In this document: positions 30,638 through 47,608 of the stretch, one piece after another
Numbering within the stretch: the stretch's first letter is position 1
Layout: every line of letters begins with the position of its first letter
DNA from: Rhodocyclaceae bacterium
GTDB taxonomy: Bacteria; Pseudomonadota; Gammaproteobacteria; Burkholderiales; Rhodocyclaceae
Direction: 5' to 3'
Length of the DNA: 64,000 nucleotides
Assembly: GCA_020445785.1 (NCBI GenBank)
Contig: JAGRFZ010000028.1
Coordinates: 17,546 to 81,545, forward strand
Made by a program: the position numbers and the translations under genes
The notes under the pieces: generated by a model
Told to the model about the DNA's origin: nothing
Seen by the model: the letters and a program-made list of their open reading frames with translations, nothing else
The model's database searches: none

Positions 30638-31368
30638 TGGACGTCGGTCGTTTCCTTCCGCGCCTGCCGGCGCTGCCGCTCGGCAGCGCACTGCTGGTCG
30701 CCCTGGCGCTGGTGTTCGGCGCTGCCGCGGCTCGCCTGTTGACGCCCCATCTGAGCGAGGTACGGGAGGTCGCCGACCTCGAATCGGCGCTGCCGAGGCA
30801 ATTCGGTGAATGGCGCGAACTGCCGAGCCCGTTGATCCAGGTGAATGTCGCGGTCGATGGCGAACCTTCGCTCGACCAGCCCTACGATCAAGTGGTGATG
30901 CGCGCCTATCGGCACGCCGACGGTGCCGTCGTCTATCTGGCCGTTGCCTGGGGGCGCCGGCAGCGCCAGGAAGTCAAGGTGCATCGACCCGACCTGTGCT
31001 ACACGGCCCAGGGCTATCGGGTCGCGAGCCTCGACAGCAAGCGCTTCGATGGCATCGAAACGACCGCCGGTGCGGTTGCCGGCAAGCGCATGTTGGCGCT
31101 CGGAAGACGTGGCGGTGAAGCGGTGAGCTACTGGATGCGAATCGGCGATCTGTTCAGCGAGGATGCCTGGGATACCCGGATGCACATCCTGCAGCAGGGC
31201 CTCGAGGGGCATATTCCCGACGGCGTGCTGGTGCGGGCGTCGGTGCGGGTCCGTGACTCCCGCGAAGCCGAGCAGGCGTGGCCGGTCGCGGAGGCGTTTC
31301 TGTCGGACCTGACCCGGGCGGTGGAACCGTCGGCGAGGCGGATGTTGCTGGGCTGGGAGGCGTCGTGA
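30637..31368 (+). CDS. epsI: EpsI-family exosortase-associated protein
   Basis: A 243-residue protein with one N-terminal membrane segment (LGSALLVALALVFGAAAARLL) and a periplasmic EpsI domain. The conserved core VYLAVAWGRRQRQEVKVHRPDLCYTAQGYRV contains the HxPxxCY motif, and the later YWMRIGDLFSEDAWDTR is also characteristic. EpsI accompanies or is fused to exosortases; its biochemical job is not settled. The ATG at 30637 overlaps the last base of xrtB; a GTG one codon earlier is possible. Confidence 0.9.
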   Translation: MDVGRFLPRLPALPLGSALLVALALVFGAAAARLLTPHLSEVREVADLESALPRQFGEWRELPSPLIQVNVAVDGEPSLDQPYDQVVMRAYRHADGAVVYLAVAWGRRQRQEVKVHRPDLCYTAQGYRVASLDSKRFDGIETTAGAVAGKRMLALGRRGGEAVSYWMRIGDLFSEDAWDTRMHILQQGLEGHIPDGVLVRASVRVRDSREAEQAWPVAEAFLSDLTRAVEPSARRMLLGWEAS

Positions 31369-32632: not shown

Positions 32633-33918
32633 CGGCTGTTGCCGCATCACCCGCGGCGGTTATCGCCGCGGCACCCTCGTCGGCTTTGCACGAGCGTGGC
32701 TGCGCCGCGCTCTGGCTGAAGACGACGCTGGTCTGGTTGCCGGTTACGTCGTTTCTGGCGATACCACAGGTTCAAGGAACCACGCCTGCCAATCTGCTGA
32801 TCCTGATGCTGCTGCTGCCGCTGACCGGCCCGCTGTTGCTGGGCCTGCGGGGTTACGCCGACCTGATCGCGCGATTGATGCCCTTCCTGCTCGGCCTCGG
32901 CATCCTGTTCTTGGCTTCGCGCTTCGCCCTGCTCTCGGCATCCGACGGCCTCGCCGGGCTGAGCCTGATCAACCCGCGATTCGCCCTCCCGCTGACCATG
33001 ACGGCGAACGTCACCCAGTCGATATACCTGGTGGTCGGCCTGACCCTGTTCCTGCTGGTACGACGGCACTACGACCGGAGCTGGGACGGTGCCATCTTTT
33101 CCGGCGCCTGGTTCCTTCTGGCCTACGGATTCGTCGACTGGTTCGCCCAGACCTTTCTCGGCTTCAATGCCGACTTCATGGCCAACCGGACCTTCGATGT
33201 CGGACGCTTCGAAATGCCGGGTTCGCTGCGCCAGAATATCCTGTTCGCAGGATTTCCGATGCTCCGGTTCAAGAGCTTCACCGGCGAGCCTTCGATGTTC
33301 GCCCTGACGGCCCTGTGCTACCTGGCACTGGCGGTGGTGCGTGGGCGCACCTGGCTGACCGCTGCCCTGGTACTCGCTTTGCTGCTCTCCTTCTCGGCGA
33401 CCGCCTACGCCGGCCTGCTGGTGTTTGCCCTGGTGTTCTCCGGGCGCCTGCGATTCGGCCAAGTGGCGCCAGCGCTCGGCCTCCTCGCCGCGGTCGCCTC
33501 GATCGCCGTATGGTGGGATTGGGAGACGATCTGGCGCACGGTCGACCATCTATTCATCGCCAAGCTGACGGCCGAATCGCACTCGGGCGCGGCGCGCATG
33601 GGCTCCTTTGTGCGACACCTGCAGGCCTGGTGGCACGCGCCGTTTCCGCTGCTGGTGGGCTACGGTTTCGGTACCGCGCGATCGACCGATCTGTTGTCCT
33701 CCCTGCTGGTCAATCTCGGTCTCATCGGGACGGTTTGTGTGTTCCTGCTGCTCGGACAGGTGCTGCGCGTAGCGCAGCGGGAACGCAGGACCATCGAGAT
33801 GGTCGGCATGGCGACGGTGTTCGGTTTGATGCTGGTCGCCGTCCCGGAGTTCGCGTATCTGCCGCCGTGGCTGCTGGCGGGGATCGCCATGCGCCCCCCC
33901 GAGGGGGAGGCCAGGTGA
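32629..33918 (+). CDS. Wzy-like polysaccharide polymerase
   Basis: A 429-residue protein with 10 to 12 hydrophobic helices and a large, less hydrophobic loop around 170-230 (AQTFLGFNADFMANRTFDVGRFEMPGSLRQNILF...SFTGEPSMFALTALCYL). This is the layout of O-antigen ligase/polymerase-type proteins, and FTGEPSMFA is like motifs seen in EPS polymerases. It would join repeat units on the periplasmic face. The GTG start overlaps the stop of the preceding glycosyltransferase gene by 4 bp, which decides the start. The assignment rests on topology and context. Confidence 0.75.
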   Translation: MTAVAASPAAVIAAAPSSALHERGCAALWLKTTLVWLPVTSFLAIPQVQGTTPANLLILMLLLPLTGPLLLGLRGYADLIARLMPFLLGLGILFLASRFALLSASDGLAGLSLINPRFALPLTMTANVTQSIYLVVGLTLFLLVRRHYDRSWDGAIFSGAWFLLAYGFVDWFAQTFLGFNADFMANRTFDVGRFEMPGSLRQNILFAGFPMLRFKSFTGEPSMFALTALCYLALAVVRGRTWLTAALVLALLLSFSATAYAGLLVFALVFSGRLRFGQVAPALGLLAAVASIAVWWDWETIWRTVDHLFIAKLTAESHSGAARMGSFVRHLQAWWHAPFPLLVGYGFGTARSTDLLSSLLVNLGLIGTVCVFLLLGQVLRVAQRERRTIEMVGMATVFGLMLVAVPEFAYLPPWLLAGIAMRPPEGEAR

Positions 33919-35213
33919 AGGCGGTTGACCTGTTCGCGGCGATGGTGCTGCTGGGTTCGGCAGTGGAGGCGGCCGCCGCCGGATTTGTGCTGGGCGTGGG
34001 CACCCACGCCGGCATCGGCCGCGACCAGGCCGCCGCGATCGAAAGCCGTCTCGCCGAGGCGCCCGCCGATGCAATCCGCGACGACTTGCTGTGGAGCCGC
34101 GTCGAGCGCCGGCCGGGTCGCTTCGAGCGGAGTGCGGAAGTGCGGGAGCTCGACGCGCTGATCGATTCTTCGCGGCGGCAGGGCCGCGAGGTGGTGCTGA
34201 TCCTCGCCTACGGCAACCGCGCGGTCGGCGTCCACGGCCTGCCGCGCAGTGCGGACGAACGGGCAGCCTTTCTTCGCTACGTCCGCTGGGCGGTCGAACA
34301 GTACAAGGATCGCGTCCGCTACTTCGAGGTGTGGAACGAATGGAACACCGGCATGGGGGCCGGCGCCGGCAAATCGCATGGCAGCGCGGCCGCCTACCTG
34401 GCGCTGCTGAAGGAGGTCTATCCGGCGATCAAGGCGCTCGCACCGGAGGCGGTGGTGCTCGGCGGTGCGGTCTCGGGAACCGACACCGATTGGGTGCAGG
34501 CATTTCTCGACGCCGGCGGGCCGGACCATCTCGATGCGCTGTCGCTGCACCCCTATGTCCATGCCAAGGGGCGGGCCGGTCTGCCGGAGCGTGTCATCGG
34601 CTGGCTGGACCAGGTGCGCGCGCAGCTAGCCTCCCGACCGGCGTGGCGCGACAAGCCGATCTTCATCACCGAAATCGGCTGGCCCAGCAGCGTGTCGCCG
34701 CAGGGGGTAAGCGCCTCGCGGGTGGCCGACTTCGTGGTCCGTTTCCTGTCCCTGGCCCGGGCGCGGGCGGACTGGATTCATGGGGTCTGGTGGTATGAAT
34801 TGATCGACGGTGGTCGCCGGCCGGAAAAGAATGGGCACAACTTCGGGCTGTTCGATCGGGCCGGCGGCAGCAAGCCTGCCCTTGCGGCGATCGCGAAAAT
34901 GCGCGCGCTGATCACGCGCTTCGACGATTGGCACGAGCTGGACGTGGGCCCCGACGCACGCCTGGTGATTGCCTCGAACCCGTCTCCTCCGGCGAGCTGC
35001 GCAGTGCTGTGGTCCGTTCACGGCGCGCACCCTGCCTTTCTGCTGTTCGCGGCCGGTGGCGACATCCAGTGGCAGCCGGCCACGGCCACGGACGCCGGGC
35101 CGGTGGACGGCAAGTGGCAGGTGGCCGCCCGCGAGACGCCGCAGATCTGGTGCGCCGAACGCGGCCTCATCGAGGCCGTGCCAGTCCGGCCGATCGGGCG
35201 CCCGGACGCATGA
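33915..35213 (+). CDS. secreted clan-A glycoside hydrolase-like protein
   Basis: A 432-residue protein with a signal peptide (FAAMVLLGSAVEAAAAG) and a TIM-barrel glycosidase domain. The proposed acid/base is E142 in FEVWNEWN and the nucleophile E253 in IFITEIGWPSS. The spacing and motifs are those of clan A families such as GH39/GH5-type beta-glycosidases. ALSLHPYVHAKGR and GVWWYELIDGG are additional barrel motifs. A beta-sandwich-like tail follows. The GTG start overlaps the polymerase stop (GTGA). It probably edits or depolymerises the polysaccharide in the periplasm; the substrate is unknown. Confidence 0.82.
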   Translation: MKAVDLFAAMVLLGSAVEAAAAGFVLGVGTHAGIGRDQAAAIESRLAEAPADAIRDDLLWSRVERRPGRFERSAEVRELDALIDSSRRQGREVVLILAYGNRAVGVHGLPRSADERAAFLRYVRWAVEQYKDRVRYFEVWNEWNTGMGAGAGKSHGSAAAYLALLKEVYPAIKALAPEAVVLGGAVSGTDTDWVQAFLDAGGPDHLDALSLHPYVHAKGRAGLPERVIGWLDQVRAQLASRPAWRDKPIFITEIGWPSSVSPQGVSASRVADFVVRFLSLARARADWIHGVWWYELIDGGRRPEKNGHNFGLFDRAGGSKPALAAIAKMRALITRFDDWHELDVGPDARLVIASNPSPPASCAVLWSVHGAHPAFLLFAAGGDIQWQPATATDAGPVDGKWQVAARETPQIWCAERGLIEAVPVRPIGRPDA

Positions 35214-35259: not shown

Positions 35260-36336
35260 ATGAAGCCGCTGGCCATCAACTGCCGCTTCCTCAACCGCAG
35301 CATGACCGGCGTCGACCGCTTTGCCGGTGAGCTTCTCCGGGCCCTCGACCGCCTGCAGGCGAACGGTGATCCGCTGCTCGAGGGGCTGCGCGTGCGGGCA
35401 CTGGCGCCACCGGGCACGGCGCGCCCGCCGTGGCTGGAAGGCATTCCCCTGCGCACTTGTGGCCGCCTGCGGGGACAGGCCTGGGAGCAACTTGAGCTGC
35501 CTCGTGCCGCCGGCGACGACTTGCTGCTCAACCTGTGCAATACCGGCCCCCTGCTGCGCCGACGGCAACTGGTCGTGATTCACGACGTGGCGACCTTCCG
35601 GGTGCCCCAGTCCTACAGTGCGACGTTCCGCCGCTGGTACGGGCTGATGACGCCTCGCTTGTACCGGGCGGCTGCTCAGGTGGCGACGGTGTCGGAGTTC
35701 TCGCGTCGCGAGATGGCCGGCTTGTTCGGGAAGCGCGACGATGTCGTGGTGCTGCCCGAGGGGGCGGACCATATCGGTCGTGGGACCGAGGACACCGCGA
35801 TCCTCGATCGGTACGCGCTGCGGGCGCGGCCGTTCGCGTTGGCGGTCAGCAGTCAGGCGCCGCACAAGAACTTCTCGGTCGTCGCCGAAGCCGTTGCGCA
35901 GATCCGTGGCGCGGATTTCGATCTGGTGGTCGCCGGTGGCCAGAATCCGAAGGTTTTCGGCGGCGGGCGGCCGCTGCCGGGCTTCGTCAAGCATGTCGGT
36001 TACGTGACGGATGCCGAACTCCTGGCGCTCTACCGGAATGCTGCCTGTTTCGTATTTCCGTCGCGCTACGAAGGCTTCGGACTGCCTGCGGTCGAGGCGA
36101 TGGCCTGCGGCTGTCCCGTGCTTGCCGCAAACGCGGCGTCGATTCCGGAGGTATGCGGCGAGGCCGCGCTGTATTTCGATCCGCAAGACGCGCCAACGCT
36201 GGCCCGCGTGCTGTCCGGGCTGATGGCCGACGAGGCCCAGCGACGGCGGCGCTCCGCCGCGGGTCGAGCACATGTGGAAGGACTGAAATGGGAAAATGCG
36301 GCGAAATGCCTGTTGGAGATGATCGCGCCGACCTGA
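35260..36336 (+). CDS. GT4-family glycosyltransferase
   Basis: A 358-residue GT-B glycosyltransferase. The N-terminal INCRFLNRSMTGVDRFAGELLRAL and VVIHDVATFRVPQSYS are typical of mannosyl/rhamnosyltransferases of family 4. The donor-binding half has FALAVSSQAPHKNF, FVKHVGYVTDAELLALYRNAACFVFPSRYEGFGLPAVEAMACGCPVLA with the conserved E-x7-E arrangement. It is followed closely by another transferase gene, overlapping by 49 bp if the latter starts at 36288. The sugar is unknown. Confidence 0.88.
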   Translation: MKPLAINCRFLNRSMTGVDRFAGELLRALDRLQANGDPLLEGLRVRALAPPGTARPPWLEGIPLRTCGRLRGQAWEQLELPRAAGDDLLLNLCNTGPLLRRRQLVVIHDVATFRVPQSYSATFRRWYGLMTPRLYRAAAQVATVSEFSRREMAGLFGKRDDVVVLPEGADHIGRGTEDTAILDRYALRARPFALAVSSQAPHKNFSVVAEAVAQIRGADFDLVVAGGQNPKVFGGGRPLPGFVKHVGYVTDAELLALYRNAACFVFPSRYEGFGLPAVEAMACGCPVLAANAASIPEVCGEAALYFDPQDAPTLARVLSGLMADEAQRRRRSAAGRAHVEGLKWENAAKCLLEMIAPT

Positions 36337-37505
36337 CGCCCATGGCGGAAGGCGGGCGACGGCTGCCGAAGGTGGCCGTGGTGCACGATTGGCTCACCAC
36401 CTATGCGGGTGGCGAGCGCGTGCTGGCACAGATTCTCCGCATCTGGCCGACGGCAGACCTGTTCGCCGTGGTGGACTTCCTGCCCGAAGCGGACCGCAAG
36501 CAACTGCTCGACAAGCGTGCGACGACCAGCTTTGTTCAGCGGCTACCGTGGGCAGCGACGAAGTACCGTGCCTATTTGCCGTTGATGCCCTTGGCCGTCG
36601 AGCAACTGGATGTGAGTGGCTACGACATCGTGATATCGAGCAGTCACGCGGTGGCCAAAGGCGTGATCACCGGCCCCGATCAAGTGCATGTGAGCTACGT
36701 TCATTCTCCGATTCGCTACGCTTGGGACCTGCAGCACCAGTATCTGGCGGAGGCCGGAATGGCGCGCGGGCTGAAGAGCATGATCGCCCGAATCGTCCTG
36801 CATTACATGCGGATATGGGACGTACGCACGGCGAACGGGGTCGACCGATTCGTCGCCAATTCCAATTTCATCGCGCGTCGCATTCGCAAAGCCTACGGCC
36901 GCAGTGCCGAGGTCGTCTACCCGCCGGTGGACATCGATCGATTCACGATGAGGGCGGAGAAAGAGGACTTCTACCTGGCGGCGTCCCGCATGGTGCCCTA
37001 CAAGAAGATGCCGCTGATCGTCGAGGCGTTCTCGCAGATGCCAGAAAAGCGCTTGGTGGTGATCGGGGACGGTCCCGAACTCGCCCGTGCCGAGGCGGTG
37101 GCGGGAGCCAACGTCCGTCTGCTCGGTTACCAGGGAGACCAGGTGCTGGTGGACCACATGCAGCGGGCCAAGGCCTTCGTGTTCGCGGCGGAGGAAGACT
37201 TCGGCATCACACCTGTCGAGGCGCAGGCCTGCGGAACCGCCGTCATCGCCTACGGCAAGGGCGGGGCTCTGGAGACGGTCAGGGAGGAAGGGGACGAAAG
37301 AACGGGTCTGTTCTTCGACGATCAAAACGTGCCAGCGATCATCGCCGCAGTGCAGCGTTTCGAGAATTTGGCGTCACCGATCGAGCCGAGTCACTGCCGC
37401 AGGAACGCAGAAAGATTTTCGCAGCAAGCCTTTTGCGAGCGATTGCAGCGCCTGGTACGTGATGCGTGGCGGGCCCACGCGGGCAATGGCACCGAGGCGC
37501 GATAG
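36288..37505 (+). CDS. GT4-family glycosyltransferase (WbaZ-like)
   Basis: A protein of 405 residues if the ATG at 36288 is used; this start has GGAAGGA 6 bp upstream. An ATG at 36342, just after the preceding stop, is the alternative and would lose 18 residues of no homology. The N-terminal KVAVVHDWLTTYAGGERVLAQIL, the HVSYVHSPIRYAWDLQHQYL segment, VANSNFIARRIRKAYGR, YLAASRMVPYKKMPLIVEAF and FAAEEDFGITPVEAQACGTAVIAYGKGGALETV are those of WbaZ-type mannosyltransferases. It ends the plus-strand exopolysaccharide run; the sulfotransferase gene converges from the other side. Confidence 0.9.
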   Translation: MGKCGEMPVGDDRADLTPMAEGGRRLPKVAVVHDWLTTYAGGERVLAQILRIWPTADLFAVVDFLPEADRKQLLDKRATTSFVQRLPWAATKYRAYLPLMPLAVEQLDVSGYDIVISSSHAVAKGVITGPDQVHVSYVHSPIRYAWDLQHQYLAEAGMARGLKSMIARIVLHYMRIWDVRTANGVDRFVANSNFIARRIRKAYGRSAEVVYPPVDIDRFTMRAEKEDFYLAASRMVPYKKMPLIVEAFSQMPEKRLVVIGDGPELARAEAVAGANVRLLGYQGDQVLVDHMQRAKAFVFAAEEDFGITPVEAQACGTAVIAYGKGGALETVREEGDERTGLFFDDQNVPAIIAAVQRFENLASPIEPSHCRRNAERFSQQAFCERLQRLVRDAWRAHAGNGTEAR

Positions 37506-37606: not shown

Positions 37607-39040
37607 TCAGGCCGGTTCGCCCGACCCGCCGTACCAGCGGCGCATGGGTTCGGCGCACCATTGCTCGAAGGCCGCCCGCTCGCCCTCGCTCCAACCCGAA
37701 CGCGCGACCTTTTCGTGCCGCGCCTGGTTTTCCACCGTCACTTCCAACGCTTCCACTGGGAGGCCGAGGAAGCGCTGGACCTCGGTGATTTGGTCGGCAA
37801 AAGCCTCGATTTCGACCCGCATCCAGCGGCGAGGGTCGATCGAGCCGAGGGTACGCTCGATGTTCTCGTTCCAGTAGCGCCAATACCAGCAATTGCGCTC
37901 GAAGGGGCTCATCTGCCGCCACTGGGCTTCGCTCAGGTCATCGTCGGTGAGCGAACCGTTGGCACGGTAGCTGCTCCATTTTTCCTCGGAGAATATGGCG
38001 CGGCCCGGCTGCGTGGCGTAGCCGAACTCCGAATCGTCGAACCAACCGCGCCCCACGCTCGACGCAACCACATCCTCGGCCCGGCGCACGACCCAGAGAA
38101 ACTTGGCTTCCGGCATCAACTCCGCCAGGATGGATGCAAGGTTGCCGTACTTGTGATCCGATTCGCCGACGATTGTCTCAGGATCGAATGTGCTACAGCC
38201 GACAAAGGAGGCTGCCAGCTCGGCCTGCGCCGCCTCCCGCGAGATCTTGCCGTGGAGGTAGTCGGAAGACAGGCGAATCATCGCGTGGCGTGGCTCGTGC
38301 GTACATCGGCAGTGGGAATTCCGGTCGAGTACTTCGGCAATCGTGGCACTGCCGCTGCGTCCGGTGGACAGTACGAAGAACAGATTCCTGCCCATCTCCC
38401 TGCCGTTTACGGTGCGTTGGCCGAGTGCGACGGGCCCGCCGGAGGCGCCTCCATAGGCGCGCTCGTGTTCGAGCCGAGCATAGTGATCGCTGTCGCGGGC
38501 GCCGATGCACCGGGTCTTCTGGCCGGCGACGACCGCGAATGGAGCGACCTCTCCACTGACGACCGCACCGAGGCCGACGACCGCGCCTTCACCGATCGTG
38601 GTGCCGGGCGCGATCGACGCGCCCATGCCGATCCAAACGTTGCGACCGATCGTCACCGGCTTGCGCACGAGTGCTTCATCGTAGGGAAGGCGCTTGCCGT
38701 GGATGTCGTGGTTGCAAGTGTAGATGGTCACGTTTCGACTGATGTGCGTGTTGTCGCCGATGGTCAGTCCGCCTTCGGTCTTGAAGAAGCAGTGCTCGCC
38801 GACGAAGACGTTCGATCCCACGGTCAGGCTGCGGAAATCCGAAATCGTCATCGGGCCCCGGAAGCAGCAGCCGGTGCCGACTGCCTTGCACTTGTGGTTG
38901 AGCGCCGAGGTGTAGGCCTTGTGGCGCACCGTCGAAAGCAGCGGGCGAAGCTCGCCGAGGTAATAGGCGAACGCTCGGCCGAAACGGGGGCTGGAAATGA
39001 ACCGATTGACGGTTTGGGCCAGGCGGCCCGAAAGATTCAT
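37607..39040 (-). CDS. fused O-acyltransferase (left-handed beta-helix) and PAPS sulfotransferase
   Basis: One 477-residue open frame with two enzyme domains and no stop between them. Residues 1-215 are a hexapeptide-repeat acyltransferase (WbbJ/NodL type): ISDFRSLTVGSNVFVGEHCFF, ISRNVTIYTCNHDIHGKRLP, VTIGRNVWIGMGASIAPGTTIGEGAVVGLGAVV. Residues 216-477 are a sulfotransferase with the PAPS 5'-phosphosulfate loop STGRSGSAT (225-233) and a 3'-phosphate motif RRAEDVVASS (319-328). An internal ATG at 38395 has GGGAG abutting it with no spacer, so independent translation looks poor. The ATG overlaps the flippase stop (ATGA); a second ATG at 39046 is possible. It could acylate and sulfate the same glycan. 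Confidence 0.85.
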   Translation of the reverse strand: MNLSGRLAQTVNRFISSPRFGRAFAYYLGELRPLLSTVRHKAYTSALNHKCKAVGTGCCFRGPMTISDFRSLTVGSNVFVGEHCFFKTEGGLTIGDNTHISRNVTIYTCNHDIHGKRLPYDEALVRKPVTIGRNVWIGMGASIAPGTTIGEGAVVGLGAVVSGEVAPFAVVAGQKTRCIGARDSDHYARLEHERAYGGASGGPVALGQRTVNGREMGRNLFFVLSTGRSGSATIAEVLDRNSHCRCTHEPRHAMIRLSSDYLHGKISREAAQAELAASFVGCSTFDPETIVGESDHKYGNLASILAELMPEAKFLWVVRRAEDVVASSVGRGWFDDSEFGYATQPGRAIFSEEKWSSYRANGSLTDDDLSEAQWRQMSPFERNCWYWRYWNENIERTLGSIDPRRWMRVEIEAFADQITEVQRFLGLPVEALEVTVENQARHEKVARSGWSEGERAAFEQWCAEPMRRWYGGSGEPA

Positions 39041-40299
39041 CGACATCTTCTCTGGGCGACTCCATAGAGTATGACGGTGGCTACGCCGGTGACGGCGATC
39101 TCGGCCAACAGGATGGCCGCCGCGGCGCCGGTGGATTGCCAGTTGGCGACGGCGGGAACGAAAGCCACGAGGAAGACGGCGCAGGCGACCAACTGCAGGC
39201 GCATCTGGGCGCGGTCTTCGTTCAGCGGAATCAGTCCGAGGGTGGTGGCGGCGGAGCGTAGAAAGGTCACGGCCGGCACCAGGATCAGGATGGAAAGCAC
39301 GGCGAGGCTCTGTGGTTCGGCGCGCCCCAGGTAGATGCGCAACACCGTCTCGCCGTTGAAGTGCACGAGCAGTCCGATGGCGGCCAGGCCGGCGGCTACG
39401 ACGGCGGAAATCTGGCCCAGCCGTTTCAGCGCATGGTGTGGCGATTCGCCGAATCTGCGCGAGAAATACGGAAACAATGCCTTGTTCAGCGGCAAGTACG
39501 AAAAGCGAAGCATGTAGCAGAGCTTGTCGATGGCGGCGAAGGGCGCAAGCTGTGCCGAGGAAACGAGGTAGCCCAGCAGAATCACGGGTCCGTGGACGAG
39601 CACGGTGCCGCAAAGATTGGATACGAATAGGTAGCGGCCGGCGGCGAGATTGGACCGCAGTTGGTGCCAGGTCGGCCGGCTCTGCCGAGCGCCGACCGCC
39701 CGGCTCGCGCGATGGTGCAGCAGCCATGCCGGGATCATCGTGCCGAATGTCAGAATGGAGATTGCCAGCGCGCCGTCGTCGGCATTGCGAACGAGAAGCA
39801 GCAGGCAGGCCAGCGCGGCGAGCCGGCCGCCGATGAGGATTGTGACCGGCAGCGCGAGTCGTTCCCGCGCCTGGTGGAACCACAGCGGAAGCAGGGCGTT
39901 CGCCACCAGCAAGGGCGCTCCGGCGAGGGCAAACCCGATGCCGAGGTCGCCACGTAGTCCGCAGGCCAGCAGATAGGCGAGCAGGGCCGGCCCGAGGATC
40001 AGGAATTTCGAATGCTGGGTGAGGTAGAAGATCCGGTTGGTCCGCGTGGCGTCGTCGCGAACGCGCGCCAGTTCCCGCACCGCCGTGAAGTTGAAGCCAT
40101 ATTCGACGATCATCGAAAAAGCGATTGCGGTCGAATAGACGAAGGCGACGTTGCCGAACGATTCGTCGCCGAGGGTCCGGATCAGGTAGGGATAGATCAG
40201 CAGCGGCGTCGCGACGCCGGACAATTGGAACAGCAGCATCCAACTGGCATTGGCTAGGATCGTGCGGCGAACGCCCGGCTTGGCTGCGCTTGGATGCAT
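39037..40299 (-). CDS. Wzx-type polysaccharide flippase
   Basis: A 420-residue membrane protein of the MATE/MOP-like flippase family with about 12 to 14 helices. It should flip lipid-linked repeat units across the inner membrane. Family marks are TILANASWMLLFQLSGVATPLLIYPYLIRTLGDESFGNVAFVYSTA, VEYGFNFTAVRELARVRDD and FAAIDKLCYMLRFSYLPLNKALFPYFSRR. It is the first gene of a two-gene unit and overlaps the acyltransferase-sulfotransferase gene by 4 bp, linking the modification enzyme to the export path. Confidence 0.9.
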   Translation of the reverse strand: MHPSAAKPGVRRTILANASWMLLFQLSGVATPLLIYPYLIRTLGDESFGNVAFVYSTAIAFSMIVEYGFNFTAVRELARVRDDATRTNRIFYLTQHSKFLILGPALLAYLLACGLRGDLGIGFALAGAPLLVANALLPLWFHQARERLALPVTILIGGRLAALACLLLLVRNADDGALAISILTFGTMIPAWLLHHRASRAVGARQSRPTWHQLRSNLAAGRYLFVSNLCGTVLVHGPVILLGYLVSSAQLAPFAAIDKLCYMLRFSYLPLNKALFPYFSRRFGESPHHALKRLGQISAVVAAGLAAIGLLVHFNGETVLRIYLGRAEPQSLAVLSILILVPAVTFLRSAATTLGLIPLNEDRAQMRLQLVACAVFLVAFVPAVANWQSTGAAAAILLAEIAVTGVATVILYGVAQRRCR

Positions 40300-40646
40300 G
40301 GACTGGGTTCGAACGGTCGATACGCGGCGAAGGGAGTGGTGCCAGCGGGCGTTCGGCTCGGCGGAAAGCCGGTCTTGCGCCGACGATCCGATGATCGTCG
40401 GCTCACGGGCCGCCCGGCAGCCGATCCGATACTGTGGCGGGCGCGCCCGAGAGCGCGGCGGGCCGAACGCACTGGGTGCCTAAAGGCTAACCAAGGGTTC
40501 TCGATGACGCAATGCAATAGATGCATCTGTATTTTTCACCGGGAGGGGCAACCCGCGTCGGCGGCGAAGCGGCGCGCGCGCCACGCGGCCTTGCCGGACG
40601 CCGCTCCGGCGGCCGCTGCGCGACACCCCGTCGGCGAAGGGCGGGA
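40300..40646. other. 347-bp intergenic region between flippase and cysNC
   Basis: No gene was found in this stretch. It must hold the 3' end of the cysNC transcript and the promoter of the flippase unit, both reading leftwards. It contains a perfect 10-bp hairpin at 40379-40402, a 10-bp palindrome AGATGCATCT at 40514-40523 in an AT-richer patch, and a GC-rich stem GCCGC/GCGGC around 40600-40613. No convincing promoter pair was found. Confidence 0.5.
40379..40402. repeat. perfect 10-bp inverted repeat upstream of the flippase gene
   Basis: GCCGACGATC (40379-40388) pairs with GATCGTCGGC (40393-40402) across a CGAT loop. It lies 80 bp upstream of the flippase start and 245 bp after the cysNC stop. 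No T tract follows on either strand, so an operator or processing site is as likely as a terminator. Confidence 0.5.
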
Positions 40647-42560
40647 CTACTTCTCCGAAAACAGGATGCCGTGGGTGCGCAGTGCTTCGATGACCCGGTC
40701 GGCCGCCTCGTCCGGCGTGCACAGCGAAGTGTCGATGCGCAGCTCCGGATCTTCCGGCTCCTCGTAGGGCGAATCGATGCCGGTGAAGTTCTTCAGCTCA
40801 CCACGCCGGGCCTTCTTGTAGAGGCCCTTCGGGTCGCGTTCCTCGGCCACCGCCAGCGGCGTGGCGACGTGCACTTCGACGAACTCGTCGGCTTCGACCA
40901 GCCCCCGCGCCATGCGTCGCTCCGAGCGGAACGGCGAGATGAAGGCGGTCAGCACGACGAGGCCGGCATCGAGCATCAGCTTGGCGACCTCGCCGACCCG
41001 GCGGATGTTCTCGACGCGGTCGGCATCGGTGAAGCCGAGGTCCTTCGACAGGCCGTGGCGGACGTTGTCGCCGTCCAGCAGATAGGTGTGGTGGCCCATG
41101 GCGTGGAGTTTCTGCTCGACCAGGTTGGCGATCGTCGACTTGCCTGCACCCGACAGGCCGGTGAGCCAGACGACGCAGGGCTTCTGGTGCTTGAGTCGAC
41201 CCCGGGCGGCCTTGTCCACATCCACATGCTGCATGTGGATGTTGTCGGCGCGGCGCAACGCGAAATGGATCATGCCGGCGCCGACCGTATTGTTGCTGAG
41301 CCGATCGACCAGGATGAAACCCCCGGTGTCGCGGTTGTCCTCGTAGGGATCGAAGGCGATCTGGCGGTCGAGGCCGAGGTTGCAGATGCCGATGGCATTC
41401 AACTCGAGCTGCTTGGCGGCGACATGCTCCATGGTGTTCACGTTCACTTGGTGCTTGATCTCGGTGATCGTCGCGGTGACGGTCTTGGCGCCGATCTTCA
41501 ACAGATAGTTGCGGCCGGGCAGCATCGGTTCGTCGTGCATCCACACCAGCGCGACTTCGAACTGGTCGGAGGTGCCGGCCGGCGCATCGGCGGTGGAGAT
41601 CACATCGCCGCGCGAGATGTCGACCTCGTCGGCCATGGTCAGGGTCACCGATTGGCCGGCGACGGCCTTGTCGAGGTCGCCATCGCGGGTCACGATGCGC
41701 GCCACCGAGCTGCTCTTCCCGGAGGGTTGGACGCGGATCGCGTCGCCGACCTGGACGGTGCCGCCGGCGATCGTTCCGGCGAAACCGCGGAAATCGAGGT
41801 TGGGGCGGTTGACCCACTGCACCGGCAGTCGGAACGGGCTGCGCTGCAGGCGCTCCTCGTCGATCTCGACCGTCTCGAGGTAGCCCATCAGGGTCGTGCC
41901 GTGGTACCAGGGCATGGCCTCCGACGGCGTCACGATATTGTCGCCGCGGAATGCCGACATCGGGATGAAGGTGACATCGTCGATGCCGATCTGGGCAGCG
42001 AACGCGCGATAGTCGTCGACGATGCGGCGGAAGGTCGACTCCGAATAGCCGACCAGATCCATCTTGTTGATCGCGACGACCACGTGGCGAATGCCGATCA
42101 TGCGCACCAGATAGCTGTGGCGCCGAGTCTGGGTCAGGATGCCTTTGCGGGCATCGACCATCAGCACCGCAGCGTCGGCGGTCGAGGCGCCGGTGACCAT
42201 GTTGCGGGTGTACTGTTCGTGCCCCGGCGTATCGGCAACGATGAACTTGCGGCGATCAGTGGAGAAGAAGCGATAGGCGACGTCGATCGTGATGCCCTGC
42301 TCTCGCTCGGCGGCGAGGCCGTCGACCAGCAGGGCGAAGTCAATCTCCTCGCCCTGGGTGCCGTACTTGCGGGAATCGGCCTCCATCGCTGCCAGTTGGT
42401 CCTCGAACAGCATCTTGGATTCATAAAGCAGGCGGCCGATGAGGGTGCTCTTGCCGTCGTCCACGCTGCCGCAGGTGATGAACCGCAGCAGGCTCTTGTT
42501 CTCGTGGCTCTTGAGGTATTGCTCGATGTCGGTGGCGATGAGGTCGGATACGTGGGCCAT
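40647..42560 (-). CDS. cysNC: bifunctional sulfate adenylyltransferase large subunit / APS kinase
   Basis: A 637-residue fusion. The N-terminal GTPase (CysN) part has [31 protein letters not shown] and INKMDLVG, and drives APS formation with CysD. The C-terminal third is an APS kinase (CysC) with its P-loop GLSGAGKST near residue 470, then [13 protein letters not shown] and [15 protein letters not shown]. The product is PAPS, the sulfonate donor used by sulfotransferases or by assimilatory reduction. It follows cysD after 57 bp and is the second gene of the unit. Confidence 0.96.
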
Positions 42561-42617
42561 CTTCAGGGATTCCGTTTCGGGTTTCGGGGCGTCGCGGGGC
42601 GGTGGGGCGGGAGCGCC

Positions 42618-43517
42618 TCAGAAATAGCCTTCCTGCTTCTTCTTCTCCATCGATCCTGCCGAATCGTGGTCGATGACCCGTCCCTGGCGTTCGGAGGTCT
42701 TGGTCAGCAACATCTCCTGGATGATCTGGGGCAGCGTATCCGCCTCGGACTCGACCGCGCCGGTCAGCGGATAGCAGCCGAGGGTGCGGAAGCGCACCTT
42801 GCGCATCATCGGTACCTCGCCGGGCTTGAGCGGCATGCGCTCGTCGTCGACCATGATCAGCGTGCCGTCGCGCATCACCACCGGGCGCTCTGCCGAATAG
42901 TAGAGCGGTACGATCGGGATGCTCTCGAGGTAGATGTACTGCCAGATGTCGAGCTCGGTCCAGTTCGACAGCGGGAACACCCGCATGGATTCGCCCTTGT
43001 GCTTGCGGGCGTTGTAGAGCCTCCACAGTTCCGGGCGCTGGTTCTTGGGGTCCCAGCGGTGCTGTGCGGTTCGGAACGAGAAGATGCGCTCCTTGGCACG
43101 CGATTTCTCTTCGTCACGACGGGCGCCGCCGAATGCGGCATCGAAACCGTACTTGTCGAGGGCCTGTTTCAGGGCCTCGGTCTTCATGATGTCGGTGTGG
43201 ATCGCCGAGCCGTGGGTGAATGGGTTGATGCCCTTGGCCACGCCTTCCTCATTGACGTGCACCAGCAACTCGAGACCCAGCTCGCGGGCCATGCGGTCAC
43301 GGAACCGGTACATGTCCTGGAATTTCCAGGTGGTGTCCACGTGCAGTAGCGGGAACGGAGGCTTGGCGGGATGGAATGCCTTCATCGCCAGATGAAGCAT
43401 CACCGCGCTGTCCTTGCCGATCGAGTACAGCATCACCGGATTTTCGGCTTCGGCGACCACTTCGCGCATGATGTGGATGCTTTCGGCTTCCAGCCGCTGC
43501 AGGTGAGTGAGTGTCAT
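42618..43517 (-). CDS. cysD: sulfate adenylyltransferase small subunit
   Basis: A 299-residue ATP sulfurylase subunit, which with CysN makes APS from sulfate and ATP. The family start [17 protein letters not shown] follows the ATG at 43517, and a GGAGAGGA lies 5 bp before it. The PP-loop is [16 protein letters not shown], and [23 protein letters not shown] and the C-terminal [10 protein letters not shown] are typical. The same frame stays open upstream for 285 more codons into the IS630-like domain, so a 584-residue fusion could also be made. The good ribosome-binding site and normal length favour separate initiation. Confidence 0.94.
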
Positions 43518-44372
43518 TGAAGTCCTCTCCGTTCTAGCGCGCGGGCCCCGCTTGGGGCCCGCAGAAGTGTTCGTTCGAGCCGCCGGCGGCGATTCGTCGC
43601 GAGGCGGCTGCACCAATTGCACCCGGGCCGCCTCGCGCGTCAGCCAGGCCTGCAGTTCACCGACGCGGCGGATGTCGGCGCCGCGATGGACTGCGACGAT
43701 CGGGCGGCCCGCGTCGCGGTGCAGGCGCGACAGGAAGTCGATCAGCCCCCCGGCGGCCAGCGGGCTGTCAACGACCAGCCAGCGCAGTCGTCCGCGGGCA
43801 TCGTGGGCGAACAGCTGGTGCCTGCCGCCGGCCAGCGCCCGCTCGCCGGACCAGAACACGCGCTTGCCCGCGCGGCGCGCATTATCGGCGATCGATGCGT
43901 ACTCCGCATCCATCCAGCGCTGCAGCGCACGCGACCGACTGAGTCGGGCCAGGGCCTGGAGGTCCGGCGCAGCCAGCCCCCATTCCGCGAGATAGCCGGC
44001 AATGGTGCGCTCGGCGACCTCGATGCCGAATGCCGAGCCGATGTGTGCGCGTACGACTGCGTTGTTCCACAGTGTGACCTGGGCGCCGGCGGCTTCCGGC
44101 GCCTGCTCGCACAGGGCCGCGCGGATGCGCGCCGCGGTGTCGCCCTGCAGAACGCGTCCGCCACCCGGTCTGCGCCCGCGCGGGCGGACGTCGACGGCGT
44201 CCCAGCCGCCGGCTTCGAAGGCCTTGCAGGCGCTGATGATGGTCGGTGCCGACAGGCCGGTATGCTCGCTCACGTGGGCCAGCGTCAGCCCCTGCCGACG
44301 CAGTTCGACAGCCCGCCGGCGTCGTGCATTCAGTTGCCGGGTGGTCAGTCGTTTCCCGTTCAAGTTCGTCAC
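43518..44372 (-). CDS. IS630-transposase-like HTH protein, in frame with cysD
   Basis: 285 codons from a GTG at 44372, running into the cysD ATG with no stop. The N-terminus [46 protein letters not shown] is an IS630-type helix-turn-helix. It is followed by [11 protein letters not shown] and a winged second HTH ([27 protein letters not shown]). The DDE region survives in outline ([48 protein letters not shown]), but the expected catalytic Asp positions read Gly and His, and the PYSPELNPIE end is missing. It therefore looks like a domesticated, catalytically dead transposase, perhaps a regulator of the cys genes. No inverted terminal repeats of a mobile element were identified. Confidence 0.65.
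43541..43562 (-). repeat. 9-bp GC hairpin just before cysD
   Basis: GCGGGCCCC (43541-43549) and GGGGCCCGC (43554-43562) pair perfectly across a 4-nt loop, 24 bp before the cysD start. It lies inside the open frame joining the HTH protein to cysD. No T tract follows in the transcribed direction; it may act on processing, pausing or translation. Confidence 0.5.
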
Positions 44373-44393
44373 GCAAGTTGGCCTGCCCGGATA

Positions 44394-44425
44394 TTAAACA
44401 ATTTCAAGGCTGGATACTTGTTTAA
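44394..44425. promoter_or_regulatory. AT-rich inverted repeat between the HTH-cysD unit and cysQ
   Basis: TTAAACAA (44394-44401) is the exact reverse complement of TTGTTTAA (44418-44425), with a 16-bp spacer. The pair lies in the AT-richest part of an otherwise GC-rich divergent gap. The right arm sits in the palindrome GTTTAAAC, and a TACAAT at 44435-44440 could be a -10 element for cysQ. This has the form of an operator for a dimeric regulator. Confidence 0.45.
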
Positions 44426-44489
44426 ACATATAACTACAATGCATTTCGCCGGCTTGCGGTAGATTTCGAACCCTTTCGAGGAAGGTGCG

Positions 44490-45257
44490 ATGAAGGACAT
44501 GTTGGCCTTGTTGGACGAATTGATTCCGGTGGTCCGTGCGGCCGGCGACGTGGTCATGGCCGTGTACGGCACCGATTTCGCCGTGCGCGGCAAGGACGAT
44601 GCCTCGCCGGTGACCGAGGCCGACGAGCGGGCGGAGGCACTGATCGTGCCGGCCCTCGAGCAGCTTCTGCCGGGCGTGCCGGTGGTGGCCGAGGAGGCGG
44701 TGGCGGCAGGCCGGGTGCCTCAGGTGGGCGAGCGATTCTGGCTGGTGGATCCGCTCGATGGGACCAAGGAGTTCATCAACCGCAACGGCGAGTTCACCGT
44801 CAACGTGGCACTGATCGAAGCCGGCCAACCGATCCTCGGGGTCGTCCTCGCGCCTGCGCTCGGCCAACTCTACGCGGGCGCTCGCGGTGCCGGCGCCTTC
44901 GTCGAGGACGCCAACGGCCGCCGCCCGATCCAGGTGCGGGCGGAGCCGGAGGAGGGACTTACCGTGGTTGCCAGTCGTTCCCACGGAGACGCCGACGCGC
45001 TCGCGCGCTTCCTCGAAGGGCGCCACGTGGCAGAAACGCGCAGCGCCGGCTCGTCATTGAAGATCTGCCTGGTGGCGTGCGGTGAGGCCGACGTCTATCC
45101 GCGCCTGGGAAGAACCATGGAATGGGATATCGCGGCGGGTCACGCGGTGCTGGCCGCCGCCGGCGGACGTCTGGTCGGGGTGGACGGTGCCCCGCTCGGC
45201 TATGGCAAGCCGGGCTTCGACAATCCCCACTTCGCGGCCTGGGGCGCGGGAGCCTGA
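44490..45257 (+). CDS. cysQ: 3'(2'),5'-bisphosphate nucleotidase CysQ
   Basis: A 255-residue inositol-monophosphatase-fold enzyme that removes the 3' phosphate of PAP (and PAPS), a by-product of sulfonate transfer. Metal-binding motifs are visible: VVAEEAV, WLVDPLDGTKEFINRNGEFTVNVALIE and the C-terminal TMEWDIAAGHAVLAAAGG. It is divergent from the HTH-cysD-cysNC unit. A GAGGAAGG precedes the ATG. Confidence 0.95.
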   Translation: MKDMLALLDELIPVVRAAGDVVMAVYGTDFAVRGKDDASPVTEADERAEALIVPALEQLLPGVPVVAEEAVAAGRVPQVGERFWLVDPLDGTKEFINRNGEFTVNVALIEAGQPILGVVLAPALGQLYAGARGAGAFVEDANGRRPIQVRAEPEEGLTVVASRSHGDADALARFLEGRHVAETRSAGSSLKICLVACGEADVYPRLGRTMEWDIAAGHAVLAAAGGRLVGVDGAPLGYGKPGFDNPHFAAWGAGA

Positions 45258-45331
45258 TCGATGTTGAGGAGGACGGCGGCGGCCGGGCTGCGGCGGGTAG
45301 GGTCCGCCTCTCCCGATTGCGGGCGGCGGCC

Positions 45332-47059
45332 ATGATGGCATGGTGGGTCGTGCTTGCGGTGGTCGCGCTGGTCTTCGTACTGGTCAGTGGTCGGCTTGCG
45401 CCAGTGGTCGCGTTTCCGCTGTGGGCCGCAGGTTTCTACTTGTCCGGTGTGATCGACGAACAGCGCTTCCTCGGCAACTACGCCAATCCCGCGCTGGCGA
45501 CCCTGGTGTTGCTGATGCTGGTGTCCCTGGCGCTGGAGCGGGCACCGCTGATCGAGCGCTTCACGTCCCGGCTGCTGGCCGGTAGTGAGCGCTTCGCCCT
45601 GGTCAAGCTGTCGGCGGCGACCGCCTTGTGCTCGGCCTTTCTCAACAATACGGCCGTCGTCGGCGCGCTGCTCGGCGCGGTACGCAACCAGCAGCGGCAT
45701 GCCCCGGCACGCCTTCTTATGCCATTGTCCTACGCGGCAATCCTTGGCGGCGTCGTGACCCTGGTCGGCACCTCGACCAATCTGGTGGTCAATTCCTTCG
45801 TCGTCGCTGCCGGTCTGCCAGCCTTGAAGATGTTCGACTTCATCTGGGTCGGAGTTCCGGTCGCCCTGATCGGCGTTGCGGTGCTGGCGCTCACCGCCTT
45901 GCGTCTGCCCGCGGCGTCCTCGGAAGCGCGCGGTCCAGGTCAACGCTATTTTCTCGAGGCCAAGGTGCTTGCCGGTTCGCCGTTGGTGGGGCGGAGCATC
46001 GAGGACAACCGAATGCGCAATCTCGAGGGCTTGTTTCTGGTCGAGATCCTGCGGGACGGGCGCCTGCTGTCTCCGGTGGGACCGGGCGAGGTGCTGGATG
46101 GGGGCGATCTGCTGATCTTTGCCGGCGAAGTCGGGCGGGTGCAGGTGCTCGAGCAGTTTCCCGGCCTCGAGGTATTCGGCAACCAGGCGGATGCGTTGCT
46201 GCGCGCCAATCTGGTCGAGGCGGTGATCGCCAGCGGCTCGGAACTCGCCAATCGTACGTTGCGGGAAGTCGACTTCCGGACCATGTTCGATGCCGGCGTG
46301 GTGGCGATCCGGCGCGGCGATCGGCCGCTGACCGGACAGCTCGGCCGCATTCCATTGCGCGTCGGCGACGCGCTGTTGCTGGCTACCGGTTCGGATTTTC
46401 GTCAGCACCGCAACATCGACCGGAACTTCCACGTGCTCGGCGCGACGCCCTTGCGTCCGCGCCTGAGCACGTCCGAAACCCGCCTTGCACTGGGCCTCTT
46501 CGTCGGCGTGATCGCGCTGGCCGCATTCGGCGTGTTGCCGCTGCTGGCCGGCTTGTTGGTGCTGCTCGCGACCCTCCTGGGGCGTCGCGTACTGACGCTC
46601 GGCGAACTCCGCCGCCGATTCCCGTTCGAATTGATCCTCGTGATCGGTTCCGCGCTGACGGTCGCCGCCGGTCTCGAGCGCTCCGGTGCGGCGGCATTGC
46701 TCGCCGACGGGGTGCTCACGGTGATTGGCAGCGATAGTGCCAGGGCCACCCTGATCGGCATCTACCTGCTGACCGCCGTATTGACCGAACTGGTGTCGAA
46801 CGCCGCTGCGGCGGCGCTGGTGTTTCCGTTGGCGATGTCGGCCGCCCACGCACTCGGAGTCGATCCAATGCCAATGGTGATGACCGTCGCCTATGGCGCA
46901 AGTGCTTGCTTTCTCATGCCATTCGGCTATCAGACCCACATGATGGTCTATTCGGTCGGACGATACTCGGTGCGCGACTACCTGCGCGTGGGCTGGCCGC
47001 TGGCGCTTGCCTACGGCGTCGGCGTGGTCGTGCTGGTGCCCATCGCCTTTCCTTTCTGA
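45332..47059 (+). CDS. SLC13-family permease with two RCK-C domains
   Basis: A 575-residue membrane carrier of the divalent anion/sodium symporter type. N- and C-terminal blocks of helices flank two TrkA-C (RCK-C) regulatory domains at about 205-290 and 295-380; the first includes YFLEAKVLAGSPLVGRSI and DLLIFAGEV. Carrier signatures are CSAFLNNTAVVGALLGAV, GGVVTLVGTSTNLVVNSFV and, in the second half, TELVSNAAAAALVFPLAMSAA. Next to cysQ and opposite cysDNC, sulfate is the likely substrate, but this is inferred from context. Confidence 0.88.
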   Translation: MMAWWVVLAVVALVFVLVSGRLAPVVAFPLWAAGFYLSGVIDEQRFLGNYANPALATLVLLMLVSLALERAPLIERFTSRLLAGSERFALVKLSAATALCSAFLNNTAVVGALLGAVRNQQRHAPARLLMPLSYAAILGGVVTLVGTSTNLVVNSFVVAAGLPALKMFDFIWVGVPVALIGVAVLALTALRLPAASSEARGPGQRYFLEAKVLAGSPLVGRSIEDNRMRNLEGLFLVEILRDGRLLSPVGPGEVLDGGDLLIFAGEVGRVQVLEQFPGLEVFGNQADALLRANLVEAVIASGSELANRTLREVDFRTMFDAGVVAIRRGDRPLTGQLGRIPLRVGDALLLATGSDFRQHRNIDRNFHVLGATPLRPRLSTSETRLALGLFVGVIALAAFGVLPLLAGLLVLLATLLGRRVLTLGELRRRFPFELILVIGSALTVAAGLERSGAAALLADGVLTVIGSDSARATLIGIYLLTAVLTELVSNAAAAALVFPLAMSAAHALGVDPMPMVMTVAYGASACFLMPFGYQTHMMVYSVGRYSVRDYLRVGWPLALAYGVGVVVLVPIAFPF

Positions 47060-47503: not shown

Positions 47504-47608
47504 TCTCTATGTCATTTTTCGTAATTCCTTGCATGGATGCAGATGGAATACTCTAATGTCTCCTCCAGAGCCGCTTTTCGGCTCGAATCTTCAAGCAAGG
47601 AGGTCTGC

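Follow-up and report, generated by a model that had tools for sequence, protein, structure and literature searches.

In the 64,000-nucleotide stretch of DNA analysed here (the window), the gene read as cysD joins the small subunit of sulfate adenylyltransferase to a transposase-derived helix-turn-helix (HTH) region, and sequence comparisons indicate that this region is maintained by selection. We think it probable that the fusion is a trigger enzyme, in which the dead transposase HTH regulates its own cysD-cysNC gene through candidate TTTAA sites. We lean only slightly towards a fuller version, in which the domesticated transposase has become a built-in regulator and two translation starts give both a trigger enzyme that senses APS synthesis, acting through TTTAA dyads, and free CysD.

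The fusion gene (42618..44372, minus strand) is one open frame of 584 amino acids that starts at GTG 44372 or TTG 44363. CysD proper makes up only residues 286-584 (42618..43517, minus strand) and possesses a separate internal ATG at 43517; it passes the full-length CysD models TIGR02039 (521.9, cut-off 396.6) and NF009214 (574.2, cut-off 413), and Foldseek matched it to 1zun_A at 72% identity. The original prediction overlooked that this frame is a fusion. Residues 1-262 (43587..44372, minus strand) comprise two HTH units and a truncated RNase H fold. Here the IS630 model NF033545 aligns to residues 17-174 with 56.8 bits, under its cut-off of 100, and PF13518 (HTH_28) scores 25.5 with a cut-off of 25. 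An AlphaFold2 model built from an alignment of 55 fusions contains two helical HTH units and an RNase H fold, and its Foldseek match was the Mos1 transposase (4u7b, E 2e-5), with a low TM-score (0.22 of target); by sequence, the N-terminal profile gave no significant match in the PDB (best E 0.6). The complete D, D, E triad is present in none of 64 fusions (the first D survives in 3 and the second in 2) and in all four aligned IS630 relatives, a count that left out the IS630 copy L260 and the partial L263. Among the IS630 relatives whose ends were compared, the inverted repeats read TATTAACCCGGCAA in three and a near variant in one, are of another type in L260, and are not clear in two. No flanking inverted repeats were identified around the fusions. 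Judged by sequence, residues 1-262 are thus a domesticated IS630/Tc1-mariner transposase remnant that has lost its catalytic triad.

Searching named beta- and gammaproteobacterial genomes with the N-terminal alignment gave 67 loci. In 63 of them, a single frame without stops spans both the HTH and CysD, and the remaining four are truncated by the end of their contig. An assembly artefact of MAGs can be discarded as the source of the fusion, since isolates of several genera carry it (Denitromonas, Azohydromonas, Marinobacterium, Achromobacter and Pseudomonas laurentiana). CysN lies 3' of the fusion in 57 of the 63 loci (3 kb away in L203), and the remaining six reach a contig edge. In 36 of the 63, a divergent match to CysQ or the permease is found no more than 600 bp away, and 22 have none despite at least 1.5 kb of upstream sequence. 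At least 14 of 32 type-A CysD loci do not have the HTH/transposase domain, so CysD works without it, and three CysDs (L120, L121 and L123) have an RNase H remnant and no HTH. Across 17 pairs, omega was 0.00-0.28 for the HTH, 0.09-0.64 for the remnant, 0.16-1.22 for the linker and 0.01-0.14 for CysD, with the HTH under stronger constraint than the remnant in 14 pairs. These values indicate purifying selection on the HTH, which has residues that are invariant across 55 fusions. Among the papers listed by our literature searches, mostly from outside subscription journals, none describes an HTH-CysD or transposase-CysD fusion.

The fusion sits beside an exopolysaccharide (EPS) cluster. On the plus strand, this cluster comprises the exosortase XrtB (29750..30637; TIGR03113, 358.4 with a cut-off of 275), EpsI (30637..31368; PF11984; TIGR02914, 120.7 with a cut-off of 42.8; in the XrtB/B-type EpsI model test, NF045609 scored 195.9, under its cut-off of 220), a glycosyltransferase (31478..32632; PF13692), a putative Wzy polymerase assigned from position and synteny, with no family match (32629..33918), a glycoside hydrolase-like protein (33915..35213; PF11790, 23.9 with a cut-off of 21) and two GT4 glycosyltransferases (35260..36336 and 36342..37505), the second of which served as the genus marker in comparisons. 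The minus strand follows with the sulfotransferase frame, a Wzx-type flippase (39037..40299; PF01943, 87 bits) and CysNC, the ATP sulfurylase GTPase subunit with an APS kinase (40647..42560; NF004035, 1068.9 with a cut-off of 715; PF01583, 235 bits). Divergent from the fusion on the plus strand are a CysQ-like PAP phosphatase of the inositol monophosphatase family (44490..45257; PF00459, E 1e-56) and an SLC13/DASS permease with TrkA_C (45122..47059; PF03600, 161 bits; PF02080), whose start is uncertain, whose frame as listed overlaps cysQ and which scores 92 bits with TIGR00785, under the cut-off of 198.6. The profile matches thus bear out the gene content originally described next to the EPS cluster, namely cysNC with an APS kinase, cysD, and divergent cysQ and permease, as well as a PAPS sulfotransferase frame that is coupled to wzx and adjoins the XrtB, EpsI and glycosyltransferase genes. 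Five of six genus genomes have both the EPS cluster and HTH-CysD/CysNC, and the sixth has neither.

The sulfotransferase frame (37607..39046, minus strand; start ATG 39046 or 39040) encodes a bifunctional protein, its N-terminal part being a fused hexapeptide acyltransferase (PF00132). Its overlap with wzx, at ATGTCGATGA, measures 4 or 10 bp; the 878-amino-acid frame quoted earlier takes in out-of-frame sequence inside wzx. The P-loop reads STGRSGSAT, and the sulfotransferase domain PF13469 matches narrowly (E 4e-6, 27.7 bits with a cut-off of 27, profile positions 2-142 of 216). A low-confidence model (pLDDT 55.8) has fold matches to both families, including PAPS sulfotransferases such as 4gbm (E 9e-7), and PDB sequence matches fall in residues 49-187. 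No full-length relative appeared among the matches listed from 121 family genomes, and, with the sulfotransferase half as the sole query, 3 further genomes out of the 369 of the class gave a match. The best of these (30%, in G175) was rejected as a relative, being joined to TPR repeats, with Pfam reporting TPRs and no sulfotransferase; its flagellar neighbour was named by eye. Because the window's own sulfotransferase escaped listing when PF13469 was run at genome level, the numbers of sulfotransferases counted in this way are minimum values.

What does this sulfate activation serve? It had been proposed that it serves polysaccharide sulfation and that no reductase accompanies it. The absence of a reductase is true of the window only, on whose contig PF01507 matched only CysD, because a search of the genome located cysI-DUF934-cysH on a separate contig (cysI and DUF934 named by eye). 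This CysH passes the APS reductase model TIGR02055 (250.8, cut-off 235.3) and fails the PAPS reductase model TIGR02057 (145, cut-off 254.2); it thus scores as the APS-reductase type, while also exceeding the cut-offs of the broader models named for PAPS reductase, NF002537 (276.4, cut-off 154) and TIGR00434 (168.1, cut-off 165.1). From these scores, the APS kinase of CysNC probably serves PAPS. Moreover, APS kinase and sulfotransferase co-occur among the 121 family genomes (49/16/5/51, Fisher 3e-14), although these genomes are not independent; contig-edge CysD fragments in G087 and G092 were not taken as type A in this count. A second CysD type suspected in G104 was discarded, as the second match is a transposase-like frame at 22%.

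These observations bear on the strongest rival reading, which we consider somewhat less likely than not: cysDNC-cysQ-permease would be a dedicated PAPS supply for EPS sulfation, like NodPQ/RaxPQ, and the N-terminal part of CysD would be incidental. The CysH type and the family co-occurrence are in its favour, as is the location of CysNC at the EPS cluster in all five genus genomes possessing CysNC, two of which have a different sulfotransferase directly 3' of cysNC. However, a single CysD was found in the window's genome (89% complete), and the same holds for each of the four relatives in the genus that possess it; no Sat-type sulfurylase was found in the six genus genomes, and the second sulfate-activation set looked for beside the assimilatory one was not found in the window's genome or those four relatives. 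As the only ATP sulfurylase found, the cysD-cysNC module must also feed cysteine and is therefore not dedicated to EPS sulfation. In addition, the module is retained in G489 and G490, where the junction is occupied by a pyruvyltransferase rather than a sulfotransferase, and many genera carry it without the window's acyltransferase-sulfotransferase. The proposed role in sulfation thus gains from the CysH type and the co-occurrence and loses its exclusivity. Relatives that lack this sulfotransferase often have cysD-cysNC-cysQ, no full-length counterpart being among the matches listed from the 121 family genomes, and this corresponds to part of what the original proposal named as its refutation. 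A dedicated supply also leaves the selection on the HTH unexplained.

The regulatory reading is suggested by the region upstream of the fusions. In the window, the cysD/cysQ spacer of 117 bp holds a two-box element, TATGTTTAAA-N17-AATTGTTTAATAT (44391..44430, minus strand), as a candidate operator. Both boxes are unique within the window, and the element occurs once per genome in five of six genus genomes, always just upstream of the fusion, the pattern having been typed from the very genus sequences in which it was counted. More broadly, the dyad ATTAAA-NN-TTTAAT, first spotted by eye in these same loci, which share ancestry, is found at 10/12 or better in 33 of 50 regions upstream of fusions, with 1.6 expected (L249 and regions with less than 120 bp upstream were left out). 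It ranks best of 28,672 palindromic patterns, and reached 12.9 of 25 held-out regions with 1.0 for comparison. Its density upstream of fusions is 234 times that in the rest of the loci. The spacer in the window itself scores 9/12, a level that shuffles often reach. The dyad is present in 11 of 23 loci with a divergent cysQ or permease and in 16 of 19 without, and thus goes with the fusion rather than with these neighbours. Being at least as frequent without them, it does not have their joint control as its general purpose. Two other candidates were rejected: the operator as a fossil of transposon ends, as the inverted repeats of IS630 relatives do not match the dyad, and long inverted repeats of any kind, whose arms averaged 7.84 in fused regions, 8.29 in unfused regions and 7.32 in shuffles (the largest of 20 shuffle means being 7.76). 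The linker contains a further dyad-like site, which reaches a score of at least 9 in 7 of 70 fusions and is conserved in a group of four only.

The cys genes have regulators that act from upstream, CysB for example. Such a regulator might own the AT-rich dyad, with the fused domain binding elsewhere or not at all, a reading we regard as unlikely. The dyad at 10/12 is found in none of 14 unfused type-A loci, including L108, L114, L115 and L117 of genus g6 (L116, at a contig edge, was in neither set), and the element common to the fused kin L098 and L242 is missing from unfused L108. Dyad absence from unfused loci is weak evidence, since these controls are few and GC-richer (0.63 versus 0.46 in fused loci), a difference that leaves room for another regulator. 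Against it also stands the genus element, as a pathway regulator should have several sites rather than one per genome, upstream of the fusion.

A further alternative, which we hold to be quite improbable, is that the HTH works as a tether or scaffold, giving a DNA-associated enzyme or promoting oligomerisation, and does not regulate its own promoter. It would fit the retention of the linker and of an RNase H fold that is catalytically dead, and the three CysDs with this remnant alone. However, outside CysD, the constraint is mostly strongest on the HTH, and the candidate site upstream is specific and restricted in position.

The junction also carries signals for a second product. A Shine-Dalgarno-like GGAGAGGA (43523..43530, minus strand) precedes the internal CysD ATG, and such an ATG is found at the junction in 67 of 70 fusions, preceded by a Shine-Dalgarno of at least 4 nt in 35 of the 67 and by none in 13. 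These signals probably also yield a short, unfused CysD. That CysD is made only in this way and the N-terminal frame is a decaying, inert transposase relic is very improbable, because, while the lost DDE residues, the internal starts and the type-A loci with no trace of the domain or the RNase H remnant alone would suit it, the low omega of the HTH, its invariant residues, the upstream dyad and a frame unbroken in all 63 loci showing both parts, across two classes, speak against it.

In the regulatory reading that we prefer, the transposase-derived double HTH would bind TTTAA-type sites in its own promoter, and the state of the CysD attached to it would set the level of cysD-cysNC transcription. 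If cysQ or a permease is divergent, as in the window, this site would act on those genes as well. One gene would give a regulator-enzyme and, from the internal ATG, the plain enzyme. CysD-CysNC would then provide APS, which an APS reductase encoded elsewhere would direct to cysteine, as well as the PAPS that sulfotransferases need. In the window, the most likely user of PAPS is the coupled acyltransferase-sulfotransferase, with the polysaccharide of the XrtB cluster as its putative substrate.

Trigger enzymes include BirA and NadR. The closest layout is that of PutA, likewise a metabolic enzyme with a DNA-binding domain in one chain, which binds only the spacer between putA and the substrate transporter gene putP (PMC8249747). 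The window's fusion similarly faces cysQ and a permease, an arrangement that is not general among fusions (36 of 63 loci); it differs in that the DNA-binding part is a transposase remnant, the enzyme is CysD and binding is predicted. The IS630/Tc1-mariner transposases ISY100 and Mos1 share the N-terminal double HTH and RNase H fold, and ISY100 is described as binding its own inverted repeats through that double HTH (PMC2170065); in contrast, the fusions have neither a complete triad nor identified flanking repeats, and are joined to CysD. PAPS reductase A of Tuber melanosporum belongs to sulfate assimilation and has a second role in transcription; it is fungal and activates via a C-terminal peptide and not an HTH fusion (PMC4848566). 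If our reading is correct, this is a bacterial example of a transposase that has come to supply the DNA-binding half of an enzyme of central metabolism, and a sulfate-activation enzyme joins the short list of trigger enzymes. It would also offer a one-gene system for studying how a transposase becomes a regulator, and "CysD" proteins of about 600 amino acids would have to be annotated differently.

On the side of sulfation, NodPQ is a CysD/CysNC-type PAPS synthesis serving the sulfotransferase NodH. RaxPQ and RaxST reportedly resemble it; here, the sulfotransferase is part of an acyltransferase fusion and the only CysD found carries an HTH. The synechan xss cluster of Synechocystis is a Wzx/Wzy EPS cluster with sulfotransferases, and that 2021 paper knew of none in other bacterial EPS clusters (PMC8205485); it is cyanobacterial, whereas the window has an XrtB-type cluster in a Rhodocyclaceae-like MAG with a PAPS module alongside. 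A sulfated capsule with genomic insight was reported in 2025 for Cobetia marina (PMC11766843). The EPS context described here may add a plausible sulfated polysaccharide outside cyanobacteria.

The frame called cysD (42618..44372, minus strand) encodes a 584-aa fusion protein whose anatomy matches that of a trigger enzyme, a metabolic enzyme that also regulates transcription, and we consider it fairly probable that the fusion controls its own gene. The plus strand carries an XrtB-type EPS cluster encoding XrtB, EpsI, glycosyltransferases, a putative Wzy and a glycoside hydrolase-like protein. Wzx, an overlapping 478-aa acyltransferase-sulfotransferase, CysNC and the cysD frame lie on the minus strand, with CysQ and an SLC13/DASS permease divergent from the latter. 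Thus, gene finding in the window agreed with the original prediction, both in placing a sulfotransferase beside Wzx and an EPS/exosortase cluster, and in describing cysNC with cysD and a divergent cysQ and SLC13 permease. Two points had been overlooked: the sulfotransferase and CysD are each a fusion protein. The Wzy-like protein (32629-33918) has no Pfam or NCBIfam match and is kept in the genus genomes G491 (66%) and G104 (52%). In addition, a PEP-CTERM protein encoded just past the permease (47537-48340), with homologues at the same place in G104 and G489, is likely a substrate of the XrtB system.

Residues 1-262 of the CysD fusion match the IS630 transposase model with 56.8 bits, under the cut-off of 100. 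A structure model made from an alignment of 55 fusions (mean pLDDT 77.5) predicts, ahead of CysD, two helical HTH units followed by an RNase H fold and a disordered linker; Foldseek matched the CysD part to 1zun (72% identity) and the front to the mariner transposase Mos1 (4u7b, E 2e-5, with a low TM-score). Among 32 loci from 121 family genomes encoding the same CysD type (type A), 14 have a domain match (L112 for the HTH only), 3 have an RNase H remnant without HTH, 14 have no transposase-domain match, and L116 is cut by its contig. The 3 loci with an N-terminal remnant on CysD (L120 in G031, L121 in G102 and L123 in G076) apparently lost part of the transposase. Scanning named genomes yielded 67 loci from beta- and gammaproteobacteria, 63 with HTH and CysD in a single stop-free frame, while the other 4 reach the contig end first; CysN lies 3' of the fusion in 57 of the 63, and the other 6 stop at a contig edge. 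Judged by the CysD fusion and its tree, the nearest named kin of the window's genome are Rhodocyclaceae MAGs. The fusion requires 8 state changes on the CysD tree (shuffled mean 17.3), which would fit a single or a multiple origin alike. Another genus, g6, has two type-A copies per genome (unfused L114 in G070, L115 in G118 and L117 in G005); in G005 and G070 the two copies differ, only one being fused, which makes them natural pairs for studying the domain's role.

Of the catalytic residues of the transposase, the first Asp is retained in 3 and the second in 2 of 64 fusions, none of which has the complete triad, compared with 4 of 4 aligned IS630 relatives. Across 17 fusion pairs, some sharing a member, omega ranged from 0.00 to 0.28 for the HTH, 0.09 to 0.64 for the remnant, 0.16 to 1.22 for the linker bin and 0.01 to 0.14 for CysD; the HTH value was below that of the linker in all 17 pairs and below that of the remnant in 14. 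Triad loss with HTH constraint is the pattern expected if mainly DNA binding was retained, and suggests a front that is dead as a transposase and alive as a putative DNA-binding domain. Moreover, since the ISY100 transposase binds its inverted repeats via an N-terminal double HTH (PMC2170065), the part kept in the fusion is the one expected to bind DNA.

AT-rich boxes lie upstream of the fusions. Because the dyad ATTAAA-NN-TTTAAT was first spotted by eye, we enumerated 4096 half-sites at seven spacings, and it ranked first. At 10 or more of 12 positions it occurs in 33 of 50 upstream regions, picked from 70 fusions with N-terminal parts less than 75% identical; dinucleotide shuffles give 1.6 (largest 5 in 100 rounds). 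Patterns trained on 25 loci were carried by a mean of 12.9 of the other 25 (1.0 expected), the same dyad being relearned in 12 of 20 training splits, and its density upstream of fusions is 234 times that found elsewhere in these loci. At this score the dyad is found in none of 14 unfused type-A loci, controls that are fewer and GC-richer than the fused loci, which share ancestry. A divergent cysQ or permease accompanies 23 loci, 11 of which carry the dyad, versus 16 of the 19 loci that lack such a neighbour; the dyad thus appears to track the fusion rather than the neighbour genes, and this independence favours autoregulation. The form in the window's genus consists of two boxes, TATGTTTAAA-N17-AATTGTTTAATAT, just upstream of the fusion, one per genome in 5 of 6 genomes, with one box overlapping a promoter-like site for cysQ. 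The best dyad score in the window's own spacer is 9/12, a score frequent in shuffles. In g6, fused L098 and L242 share an element absent from unfused L108, and unfused L114, L115 and L117 score 6/12. Four fusion loci (L105, L106, L111 and L210) carry a second TTTAA dyad within the coding linker, shortly 5' of the CysD start, encoding the peptide IKHL or a variant.

We favour a mechanism in which the fusion would act as a repressor whose effect depends on the catalytic state of CysD. PutA binds solely the intergenic spacer that separates its gene from that of its substrate's transporter (PMC8249747); similarly, in the window a 117-bp cysD/cysQ spacer containing the candidate sites separates the fusion gene from cysQ, which is followed by a putative sulfate permease. 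A divergent CysQ or permease match lies within 600 bp in 36 of the 63 fusion loci, 22 have none and 5 have too little upstream sequence; as the layout is not general, our confidence is slightly reduced. A short CysD could plausibly be made as well, since an internal ATG is frequent, often with a Shine-Dalgarno match: in 67 of 70 fusions one precedes the CysD core motif by 40 codons or fewer (by 8-9 codons in 40 of these), with a match of at least 4 nt in 35 of the 67 and none in 13. A comparable match occurs in 4 of 15 unfused or remnant-only type-A CysDs. In the window, GGAGAGGA lies five bases before this ATG. Trigger enzymes are already known; one built from a transposase would be new, and no HTH- or transposase-CysD fusion is described among the literature matches listed.

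The original prediction saw the cysDNC-cysQ-permease block as a PAPS supply for a sulfated polysaccharide. A dedicated supply is not supported: neither a second CysD nor a Sat was found in the genome (4.58 Mb, 231 contigs, 89% complete, of which the window is 64 kb), so cysteine synthesis must also draw on this module, the only ATP sulfurylase found. The proposed search for cysH and cysI elsewhere located both on another contig with a DUF934 gene (cysI and DUF934 identified by eye); CysH scores above the cut-off of the APS-reductase model, below that of the narrow PAPS-reductase model, and above those of two broader models that carry PAPS reductase in their names.

That PAPS made by the module feeds sulfotransferases is nonetheless very likely, given how module, APS kinase and sulfotransferase genes are distributed in genus and family. 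The HTH-CysD/CysNC module accompanies the EPS cluster in 5 of 6 genus genomes; the sixth, G049, lacks a good EPS marker match as well as any APS kinase or sulfotransferase match, and its CysD is unfused and of a different type. In G489 one contig carries HTH-CysD, CysNC and EPS glycosyltransferases; in G104, G490 and G491, where a contig break falls inside one of the genes cysD and cysN, we infer the adjacency from the position of the CysNC end at the EPS cluster. The junction gene differs, being the acyltransferase-sulfotransferase in the window, a single-domain sulfotransferase directly 3' of cysNC in G104 and G491, and a pyruvyltransferase in G489 and G490. All five module-bearing genomes have at least one PF13469 match, and the window's genome has one more, under the cut-off, beyond the window's own. 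In the 121 family genomes, which are not independent of one another, APS kinase (E < 1e-20) was found in 65; 49 have both it and a sulfotransferase (PF13469 or PF00685), 16 the kinase only, 5 the sulfotransferase only and 51 neither. When type-A CysD, present in 30 genomes, takes the place of the kinase, the counts are 24, 6, 30 and 61 in the same order.

The front of the 478-aa protein is a galactoside/maltose-type hexapeptide acetyltransferase (PDB sequence matches inside residues 49-187), followed from residue 222 by a PAPS-type sulfotransferase with a PF13469 score barely above the cut-off. Foldseek returned PAPS sulfotransferases and maltose acetyltransferases from a poor predicted model (pLDDT 55.8). 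No full-length relative appears among the matches listed in the 121 family genomes, and the sulfotransferase half alone matches in 3 other genomes among 369 of the class. A 30% relative of this half (L149 in G175, 730-2235) is joined to TPR repeats, the only domains Pfam reports there, beside a gene that by eye resembles a flagellin or hook-associated gene. Finally, L125, elsewhere in the window's genome (contig C64, 8718-10125), may be a separate sulfation locus: there, a gene resembling a sulfotransferase (PF00685, 28 bits) sits next to a second APS-kinase-like gene (PF01583, partial, 65.8 bits).
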